NCBI GenBank assembly: GCA_016871315.1
Contig: VFZE01000036.1
Coordinates: 1-58,178 of the forward strand
Direction of reading: 5' to 3'
Source: Acidimicrobiia bacterium
Lineage (GTDB): Bacteria; Acidobacteriota; Terriglobia; Bryobacterales; Bryobacteraceae
DNA length: 58,178 nucleotides
Part shown: positions 19,014 to 58,178 of the stretch, in pieces
How positions within the stretch are numbered: position 1 is the stretch's first letter
How the letters are laid out: each line of letters opens with the position of its first letter
Translations under genes and position numbers: made by a program
The notes under the pieces: model-generated
Seen by the model: the letters and a program-made list of their open reading frames with translations, nothing else
Told to the model about the DNA's origin: nothing
The model's database searches: none

Positions 19014-19274
19014 ATGCTTAACCTAGTCACCACCCGATTCACCAAGGTCATCGCGACGATGGGGATGGCCCTTTTGATCGGCGCCGCCACGACTCCGCAG
19101 TTTGACGCCCCCAACCCGCCACCCGACCCGTGGGAAGTGGCCAACTATGACGCCCCGAATCCGCCGCCCGATCCTTGGGAAGTGGCCGGCTTCGACGCTC
19201 CGAATCCGCCGCCTGATCCCTGGGAAGGTTTTGACGCCCCTAACCCGCCGCCCGATCCTTGGGAAGCGGTCTAA
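19014..19274 (+). CDS. Small exported protein with four DAPNPPPDPWE repeats (novel)
   Basis: An 86-residue protein. Residues 1-26 look like a signal peptide (MLNLVTTRFTKVIATMGMAL, then LIGAATT). The remainder is four tandem units beginning at residues 30, 45, 60 and 73, each (F/Y)DAPNPPPDPWE, with linkers VAN, VAG, G and AV. The mature part is about one third proline, acidic, with one Trp per unit and no Cys. At DNA level seven of the eleven core codons vary among the units, every change synonymous, so the peptide repeat itself is conserved by selection. The gene sits 57 nt behind a sigma-54-type start. I do not recognise the family and propose no function beyond a secreted or periplasmic linear-motif protein. 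Confidence 0.75.
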   Translation: MLNLVTTRFTKVIATMGMALLIGAATTPQFDAPNPPPDPWEVANYDAPNPPPDPWEVAGFDAPNPPPDPWEGFDAPNPPPDPWEAV

Positions 19275-56977: not shown

Positions 56978-57035
56978 CGTTACTTCACTAAAGTGGTCGC
57001 CTGCAATGGCCGATGAAGTTGTTTGGAGTCTGATT

Positions 57036-57599
57036 ATGGCCAGCACCACCCTTCACGACCTTTCCATCAGCCGTCAGCCTGAATCCGGTTATTCCCAGCC
57101 CGCCCGCGCTGTTGCCCCCGCCCCGCCCGCGATCGGCCACCGTCAGATTCTGACCGTCTCCATCGTCATTTCGCTCATGTCGGCCCTGGTTGCCACCGTG
57201 TCCTTCGCCGCCGGCAGAATGACGGCCAATGACAGGCTTCCTGCTTCCAGGGTGGAATCGCCGCAGCAGGCTGTACCGGAGCAGATCATCCTGGTGGAGC
57301 CGGTGAAACCAGCTGTACCTGCGCTCGTTCCGCAACGGGCTGCCGCAGGCCGCGGGGACTTGTATTTTCAGATCTCGGCCGTCGATCGGGGAATGGCAAA
57401 CGTTACCATCGAATACTTACGGCGCTTGGGATTTCCGGCCAGCGCAACGCCCGGCGACACACAGGGTATCTTCCGCGTCTTGGTGGGTCCGCTTCAAGAT
57501 CCCGCGGAAACCGCCAAATGGAAAGGTGAACTGATGGCGGCAGGGTTCCAACCCTTCACCCGGCGCGTAGCGGCCTCCACCTCGACATCACAGCCATGA
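57036..57599 (+). CDS. SPOR-domain membrane protein
   Basis: A 187-residue bitopic protein. A short cytosolic part rich in Ala and Pro (1-36) is followed by a TM helix (about 38-60, ILTVSIVISLMSALVATVSF), a periplasmic linker, and a SPOR domain (about 115-178: YFQISAVDRGMANVTIEYLRRLG, then FRVLVGPLQDPAETAKWKGEL). SPOR domains bind denuded peptidoglycan strands at the division septum. The start is placed at 57036, where GGAG sits seven bases upstream; ATG 57006 is possible. It is convergent with the peptide array. Confidence 0.85.
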   Translation: MASTTLHDLSISRQPESGYSQPARAVAPAPPAIGHRQILTVSIVISLMSALVATVSFAAGRMTANDRLPASRVESPQQAVPEQIILVEPVKPAVPALVPQRAAAGRGDLYFQISAVDRGMANVTIEYLRRLGFPASATPGDTQGIFRVLVGPLQDPAETAKWKGELMAAGFQPFTRRVAASTSTSQP

Positions 57600-57655: not shown

Positions 57656-57775
57656 TTAGCGGACGTCGTCCGGACAAGGCCAGCACTGCGGGAACGGGAT
57701 CTCGGCAGTGGCGACATTGGCGATGGCGCCGAACTGCAGCGCCAGGATCAGGGCGATAGCAAATCTCTTCAACAT
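57656..57775 (-). CDS. Exported 39-residue Cys/Pro/Trp peptide, array copy A
   Basis: A 39-codon gene ending TAA. Residues 1-24 form a signal peptide (MLKRFAIALILALQFGAIAN plus VATA) with an AxA cleavage site. The mature product would be EIPFPQCWPCPDDVR: 15 residues, three Pro-x steps, a CxxC (CWPC), one Trp, net negative. A strong ribosome-binding site (AAAGGAGA, eight bases from ATG) is repeated before copies A to C. Relative to copy B it has seven codon differences plus a different stop codon, all silent. I do not recognise the family. The copy is the most 3' of the array and also the most diverged at DNA level. Confidence 0.8.
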   Translation of the reverse strand: MLKRFAIALILALQFGAIANVATAEIPFPQCWPCPDDVR

Positions 57776-57800
57776 TTCTGTGTTCTCCTTTTTCCTTTAA

Positions 57801-57920
57801 CTAGCGGACGTCATCCGGGCAGGGCCAGCATTGTGGGAACGGGATTTCGGCAGTGGCGACATTGGCGATGGCGCCGAACTGCAGCGCCAGGATCAGGGCG
57901 ATAGCGAATCTCTTCAACAT
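57801..57920 (-). CDS. Exported 39-residue Cys/Pro/Trp peptide, array copy B
   Basis: Identical in protein sequence to copy A, with a TAG stop. DNA differs from copy C by one synonymous base (GAC/GAT at Asp37) and the stop codon. The signal peptide is 24 residues and the mature part EIPFPQCWPCPDDVR. Confidence 0.8.
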   Translation of the reverse strand: MLKRFAIALILALQFGAIANVATAEIPFPQCWPCPDDVR

Positions 57921-57944
57921 TTCTGTGTTCTCCTTTTTCCTTAC

Positions 57945-58064
57945 TTAGCGGACATCATCCGGGCAGGGCCAGCATTGTGGGAACGGGATTTCGGCAGTGG
58001 CGACATTGGCGATGGCGCCGAACTGCAGCGCCAGGATCAGGGCGATAGCGAATCTCTTCAACAT
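57945..58064 (-). CDS. Exported 39-residue Cys/Pro/Trp peptide, array copy C
   Basis: Identical in protein sequence to copies A and B, with a TAA stop. The mature-part DNA is identical to that of copy D, which marks C and D as the most recently homogenised pair. Confidence 0.8.
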   Translation of the reverse strand: MLKRFAIALILALQFGAIANVATAEIPFPQCWPCPDDVR

Positions 58065-58088
58065 TTCTGTGTTCTCCTTTTTCCTTAC

Positions 58089-58178
58089 TTAGCGGACATC
58101 ATCCGGGCAGGGCCAGCATTGTGGGAACGGGATTTCGGCAGTGGCAACGCTGACCGAAACATTGGCGACGGCGGCAAA
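58089..58178 (-). CDS. Exported peptide, array copy D (5' end outside window)
   Basis: The visible 29 codons encode FAAVANVSVSVATA followed by the same mature EIPFPQCWPCPDDVR and TAA. Relative to A-C the signal peptide has substitutions (G/A, I/V) and a four-codon insertion (SVSV) just before the ATA cleavage site, while the mature part is identical down to the DNA of copy C. The start lies beyond the window. Confidence 0.75.
   Translation of the reverse strand, partial: FAAVANVSVSVATAEIPFPQCWPCPDDVR

Follow-up and report, generated by a model that had tools for sequence, protein, structure and literature searches.

The 58,178-nucleotide stretch of DNA analysed here (the window), from the genome of a soil bacterium in the Bryobacteraceae (Acidobacteriota), ends in a tandem array of genes that carry the same 15-residue tail behind an export-type N-terminus, and in relatives such arrays sit in a conserved locus with the gene for F5, a protein modelled with seven membrane helices. 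That the array makes, in many copies, a secreted peptide signal sensed by F5 as its receptor is a reading to which we give an even chance. The genes, their copy number, purifying selection on them, the conservation of the locus and the linkage to F5 in relatives are established at the level of sequence.

The array comprises three complete gene copies, arranged head to tail on the minus strand, and the 3' part of a fourth (Table 1). Each complete copy encodes the same 39-residue protein, MLKRFAIALILALQFGAIANVATAEIPFPQCWPCPDDVR, whose N-terminus is built of Lys/Arg and hydrophobic residues, ends in ATA and is followed by the tail EIPFPQCWPCPDDVR; the protein is called exported from this N-terminus, as judged by eye and by script. 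A strong Shine-Dalgarno sequence, AAGGAGAA, lies 8–15 bases 5' of the ATG in the three complete copies, and the fourth shares the C-terminal 15-mer with a different sequence preceding it. The repeat is reported by TRF with a period of 144, 96% matches and a score of 894, and the copies follow one another in steps of 144–145 bp. The spacers between them measure only 24–25 bp, so the copies probably share one transcript. The original prediction had counted at least four back-to-back genes, each with its own Shine-Dalgarno. Three are complete and preceded by this sequence; the fourth is truncated, its start and Shine-Dalgarno falling outside the window, and a copy on another contig, C8, supports a number of at least four. 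The same mature 15-mer, as had been claimed, is encoded by all copies in the window.

Table 1. Features at the 3' end of the window, with window coordinates
Feature	Coordinates	Strand	Basis
Peptide gene, most promoter-distal copy: signal peptide + EIPFPQCWPCPDDVR	57656..57775	-	ORF; synonymous-only differences from the other two
Spacer with Shine-Dalgarno (AAGGAGAA) of the distal copy	57776..57800	-	
Peptide gene, next copy, protein identical	57801..57920	-	
Spacer with Shine-Dalgarno	57921..57944	-	
Peptide gene, third copy, protein identical	57945..58064	-	
Spacer with Shine-Dalgarno	58065..58088	-	
Promoter-proximal copy, 3' part, cut by contig end; likely full form opens contig C8	58089..58178	-	
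SPOR-domain protein, convergent with the array	57006..57599	+	

Contig C8 of the same genome opens with a copy that has the same 15-mer tail and a different preceding sequence, like the fourth copy of the window, and the array probably extends there beyond the contig end. By reading, the C8 copy has a GTG start after GGGAGG and looks like the window's promoter-proximal copy. In two other genomes, G118 (L050) and G119 (L049), the array lies within one contig and is flanked by F1 and by genes read as cdsA/uppS. Of these two flanks, the window's contig (C36) carries cdsA/uppS and C8 carries F1, so the two contigs are probably adjacent in the window's genome, in which the copy number is at least four. 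The promoter that had been sought at this end did not emerge, as a scan of the C8 end gave two weak sites, neither positioned before the peptide gene.

The arrays of G118 and G119, with steps of 142–145 bp, are internal to contigs of 17.2 kb and 125.7 kb, respectively. Among the three complete copies of the window, codon differences summed over pairs amount to 16 synonymous and 0 non-synonymous. An assembly artefact, which the original prediction had named as a possible refutation, is ruled out by the contig-internal arrays together with the synonymous-only differences; the latter, along with homologous arrays that other genomes carry at this locus, also argue that the array is not due to chance. 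Because the copies differ only synonymously, selection preserves the encoded peptide. A comparison of 31 arrays, drawn from this genome and others, gave a pN/pS of 0.044 for the last 16 codons against 0.153 for the remainder, and the predicted mature peptide is the most strongly constrained part. The draft genomes G017, G059, G120 and G133 each have peptide copies close to the ends of at least two different contigs; contigs therefore probably break within the array, and copy numbers from short reads are probably underestimated.

Homologous reading frames, for which a search in relatives had been suggested, occur at the same locus across the Bryobacteraceae. With the 39-residue protein as query, matches were obtained in 166 of 237 family genomes at a loose E of 1, many of them weak, and a profile of 20 peptide sequences matched in 120 of the 237 at E ≤ 0.001. 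Clustering of neighbouring genes gave the order pheA, ubiX, F0, F1, peptide genes, F5, F3, in which F5 and F3 are usual members and the names pheA and ubiX were assigned by reading. F1, the locus marker, is present in 193 of the 237 genomes and in 66 of 76 genera. Of the 120 F1 loci retrieved and scored, 82 have, at most 1.3 kb from F1, a C.PC peptide, which in 77 cases follows the pattern P.P.C.PC. The cores in the family are mostly PxPxCxPC and come from one to five tandem peptide genes or from one precursor with two to nine cores. One gene with one core accounts for 53 of the 82 C.PC loci, and tandem genes or multi-core precursors for 29. Tandem sets of two to five genes are exemplified by L046 and L048, single ORFs with two to nine cores occur at L040–L043, L071, L072, L084, L141, L146, L147, L149 and L153, and L045 combines tandem genes with a multi-core precursor. 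That the core is multiplied by two different genetic routes argues for the short repeated unit as the product. The 38 F1 loci without a C.PC peptide include many with a variant Cys spacing, some at which the sequence ends near F1 and some that show nothing by the criterion used. Spacings found at loci of the same kind include CYPFC, CGAAENPC, CPLTGC and CAPDDPNAC.

F0 adjoins F1 (in L009 at 811–1590 on the minus strand), and in most loci its 3' end overlaps F1 tail to tail. A representative of F0 gave weak Pfam matches to helix-turn-helix domains at its N-terminus, both below the cut-off (HTH_31, E 0.016; HTH_19, E 0.26), with no other Pfam domain at E 1, no TPR recognised, no PDB sequence match at E 0.1 and no match in an NCBIfam scan of this single representative. 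By reading, the F0 C-terminus may be an S24-like domain without the conserved catalytic Ser. F1 has no convincing match in Pfam or NCBIfam (a single representative in both) or in PDB by sequence; its model is all-helical (pLDDT 88), and the best VIA-align score, a Z of 5.3 to TENT5/FAM46 proteins, is not interpretable. The earlier statement that the peptide belongs to no recognised family agrees with our searches, which returned no NCBIfam match and a best Pfam E of 0.088, below the cut-off. In the libraries tried, the peptide, F1, F3 and F5 are all without a convincing match.

F5 was detected near the array in 90 of 121 loci and not found in 31, the window's own genome included; 15 of these 31, again including the window's genome, hold at most 1.31 kb of sequence beyond F1. 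The window's genome has its F5, which shares 34% identity with the L048 query, together with F3 on contig C75, and its peptide genes elsewhere. F5 is encoded on the peptide strand in all 89 loci that hold F1 and F5, and F3 on the F5 strand in 77 of 78. The SPOR-domain protein next to the window's array has a similar convergent neighbour in the other genome of the genus (G001); given that F5 is the gene near the array in most loci, it is probably a mere neighbour outside the system. The search for neighbouring genes that the original prediction had proposed thus turned up the partners F0, F1, F5 and F3 beyond the window, and no modification enzyme was recognised. That prediction could not take account of these partners or of the multi-core precursors.

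The AlphaFold2 model of F5 from L048 (pLDDT 92) contains seven helices of 19–31 residues and a C-terminal helix; F5 is accordingly modelled with seven membrane helices. Positive charges, which are more numerous on the predicted cytoplasmic side, favour an N-out/C-in topology. Of the 20 most conserved positions in residues 1–222, 16 are predicted to be cytoplasmic, and the four on the outer side include the start Met. Membrane residues vary more on the outer side than on the inner one (entropy 2.62 vs 2.21, permutation p 0.0001). F3 appears, by reading, to have one membrane helix and a soluble part. There is no Pfam match at E 0.01 in any of 59 aligned F5 members and no convincing one among 45 F3 members, neither protein has a convincing PDB match by sequence, and no Pfam kinase domain occurs in the 59 F5 members, the 45 F3 members or the F0 and F1 representatives. 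In a VIA-align comparison of F5, the best rows are class B and adhesion GPCRs with a Z of 12.2 (for example, 3.9 Å over 196 residues), a value within the range that helical bundles can reach without relation. Foldseek gave no significant fold match (best E 0.35), the top query TM-score among the rows shown being 0.47 to a bacterial rhodopsin. That a PDB fold family is missing from these rows does not count against it. In view of the insignificant Foldseek E and the caveat on Z, we claim seven helices and not GPCR homology.

Across 45 loci, peptide-core distance is correlated with F5 distance when F1 and F3 are held constant (partial r 0.175, p < 0.001), in agreement with an earlier analysis of 57 loci that left out F3. 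The corresponding values are 0.024 (p 0.33) for F3 with F1 and F5 held constant and 0.010 (p 0.42) for F1 with F5 held constant, both over 45 loci. The outer half of F5 tracks the peptide hardly better than the inner half (0.149 vs 0.138), and the signal peptide also tracks F5 (0.206) and F3 (0.212), about equally. The covariation effect is small and lends weak support to a pairing of peptide and F5.

In a sample of 396 genomes from the whole phylum, 41 contained relatives of F5; of these, 38 belong to the same class, including two from the family. The F1 profile matched 10 of the 396, and six of these belong to f2, another family in the class. At five of the six f2 F1 loci, a small ORF with predicted export lies beside F1 (for example, with CDPTVTKNC or CPLTGC), with F5 relatives beyond it; no such peptide lies beside F1 at L172 and L173, from two f18 genomes, or at L178, one of the six in f2. 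When the F1 and F5 profiles were run on sixteen further genomes from the order and class, F5 turned up in three and F1 in four; two of these genomes, G650 and G652, have a CFPC peptide and a Cys-less two-core peptide located between F1 and F5. F3 was undetected by profile beside F5 outside the family (L172–L204). At E ≤ 0.01 the peptide HMM matched 25 of the 396 genomes, including two from the family, and the out-of-family matches listed cover 14–32 of 38 positions or sit in long frames.

We examined 64 F5-like loci (60 in f2, one in the family and three elsewhere in the phylum), three of which had too little upstream sequence. A predicted small exported ORF lies within 350 bp upstream of the F5-like gene in 48 of the other 61 loci (46 of 57 in f2), whereas such an ORF precedes 7 of 225 control genes taken from 400 kb of f2 genomes and 2 of 194 taken from Bryobacteraceae loci; many of the F5-like loci come from one genus (g79) and are non-independent, so the Fisher p of this contrast is too small. 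Seven of the 13 loci missed by the criterion have a peptide ORF by eye, including multi-core precursors (L201, L215), and six of the 61 have no upstream peptide even by eye. Outside the family, the peptides that precede F5 relatives frequently come in tandem or multi-core form, and some lack Cys: among the 48 first-listed F5-linked peptides (47 of the 48 loci being outside the family), two Cys follow residue 22 in 31 and none in 14. Cys-less multi-core precursors lie directly upstream of out-of-family F5 relatives at L201, L215, L238 and L242, with SPSAPQPIPPAGDSF, SPMVVPPNPFPQPQPKG, ANMPVFPTPPAVKTA and SSIPMSPIPVGRVV repeats. In another F5-linked class, also Cys-less, a GxxPxP motif precedes a hydrophobic stretch at the C-terminus (L186, L187, L192, L216, L219, L227, L231, L234, L236 and L241).

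The window also holds a second multi-core precursor (19014–19274, plus strand), in which a signal-like N-terminus is followed by four DAPNPPPDPWE repeats without Cys. A paralogue with four HGIVPPPDPWEL repeats lies on contig C13 of the same genome (L351), and the other genome of the genus has a related precursor with six HGILPAPDPWEL repeats (L347). The sole F5 found in the window's genome is on C75, and thus none lies beside the DAPNPPPDPWE precursor.

We propose the following model. The array product would be a Sec-exported peptide signal of about 15 residues, the dose of which is raised by tandem amplification. Signal peptidase I would cleave after ATA (VATA/EIPF), a disulfide within Cys-Trp-Pro-Cys probably closes the mature peptide, and the peptide would act from the periplasm or from outside. 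The receptor would be the seven-helix F5 in the inner membrane, which may bind the peptide and relay the signal through its conserved cytoplasmic side, perhaps with F3; control of the locus probably falls to F0 and F1. The original prediction had put forward a small exported product encoded in many copies, with a pheromone as one option, and both fit the evidence. Extended to the class, each F5-type protein would be the dedicated receptor of a fast-diverging exported peptide encoded just upstream, its dose raised by tandem genes or by core repeats in one precursor; we hold this peptide-hormone reading tentatively, as somewhat short of an even chance.

The adjacency of hypervariable peptides with predicted export to a polytopic membrane protein would also be expected if the peptides were small bacteriocin-like antagonists and F5 the self-immunity membrane protein, and immunity proteins are often polytopic. 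We regard this as unlikely, given that F1 is widespread in the family and not patchy, that the conserved F5 positions are mostly on the cytoplasmic side and that the conserved neighbours include no recognised exporter or modification gene; furthermore, the very small Pro-rich cores differ from typical bacteriocins. Gene order and strand shared with F5 and F3, together with the modest covariation with F5, are consistent with the peptide being a stoichiometric subunit or periplasmic regulator of an F5/F3 complex, a microprotein partner and not a diffusible signal. Tandem amplification and precursors with two to nine repeats, however, suit a released dose better than a fixed ratio, which makes this reading quite unlikely.

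A secreted dithiol with redox or metal activity, required in large amounts in the envelope, would account for the CxPC motif, which is invariant in the 20-sequence alignment (sequences picked from matches to the window peptide). It would also suit the 96 of 100 single-core family peptides with no further Cys after residue 22, a set selected for C.PC and therefore with two Cys by construction. Cys spacing nevertheless varies at orthologous loci, and Cys-less peptides hold the same place before F5 relatives. The CxxC redox or metal role that had been offered as one function is thus disfavoured as a general one, and we consider it improbable. Enzyme-modified RiPP precursors, raised earlier as well, would fit the multi-core precursors and tandem precursor genes, both known in RiPPs, but the Sec-type N-terminus (by eye) and the failure to recognise a modification enzyme among the conserved neighbours F0, F1, F5 and F3 leave this proposal unsupported and highly improbable.

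Most of what is known of peptide signalling in bacteria concerns histidine kinases and intracellular receptors. If the receptor reading of F5 is true, the system would be a bacterial counterpart, probably convergent, of the peptide/seven-helix-receptor signalling of fungi and animals. The pairing of F5 and peptide would provide the Acidobacteriota, which are abundant and difficult to culture, with a communication system testable with synthetic 15-mers, and would offer a bacterial setting for the co-evolution of peptide ligands and seven-helix receptors. No published description of these peptides was among the matches listed in searches of the open PMC literature.

The well-known Gram-positive peptide quorum-sensing systems are AgrD/AgrC, ComC/ComD and the RRNPP regulators. 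The present system resembles them in that a small exported peptide is encoded beside a membrane or regulatory protein. It differs in that F5 has no recognised kinase domain, unlike AgrC and ComD, that the peptides have plain Sec-like N-termini and are multicopy, and that F0, compared with RRNPP regulators, combines a weak HTH match with an S24-like C-terminus (by reading) and no recognised TPR. With peptide GPCRs and microbial rhodopsins, F5 shares seven predicted helices and a probable N-out/C-in topology, whereas its best Foldseek E is 0.35 and none of the 59 members has a Pfam match. In fungi, the yeast MF-alpha precursor reportedly contains four tandem copies. The likeness to alpha-factor/Ste2 lies in a short peptide present in tandem copies within a precursor and in a seven-helix partner, ste2 proteins being described with seven TM domains in PMC10569646. 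No sequence relation was found between the two systems, and no G protein is known here. The system described here is bacterial, its peptide genes adjoin the membrane-protein gene, and many of its loci have separate one-core genes.
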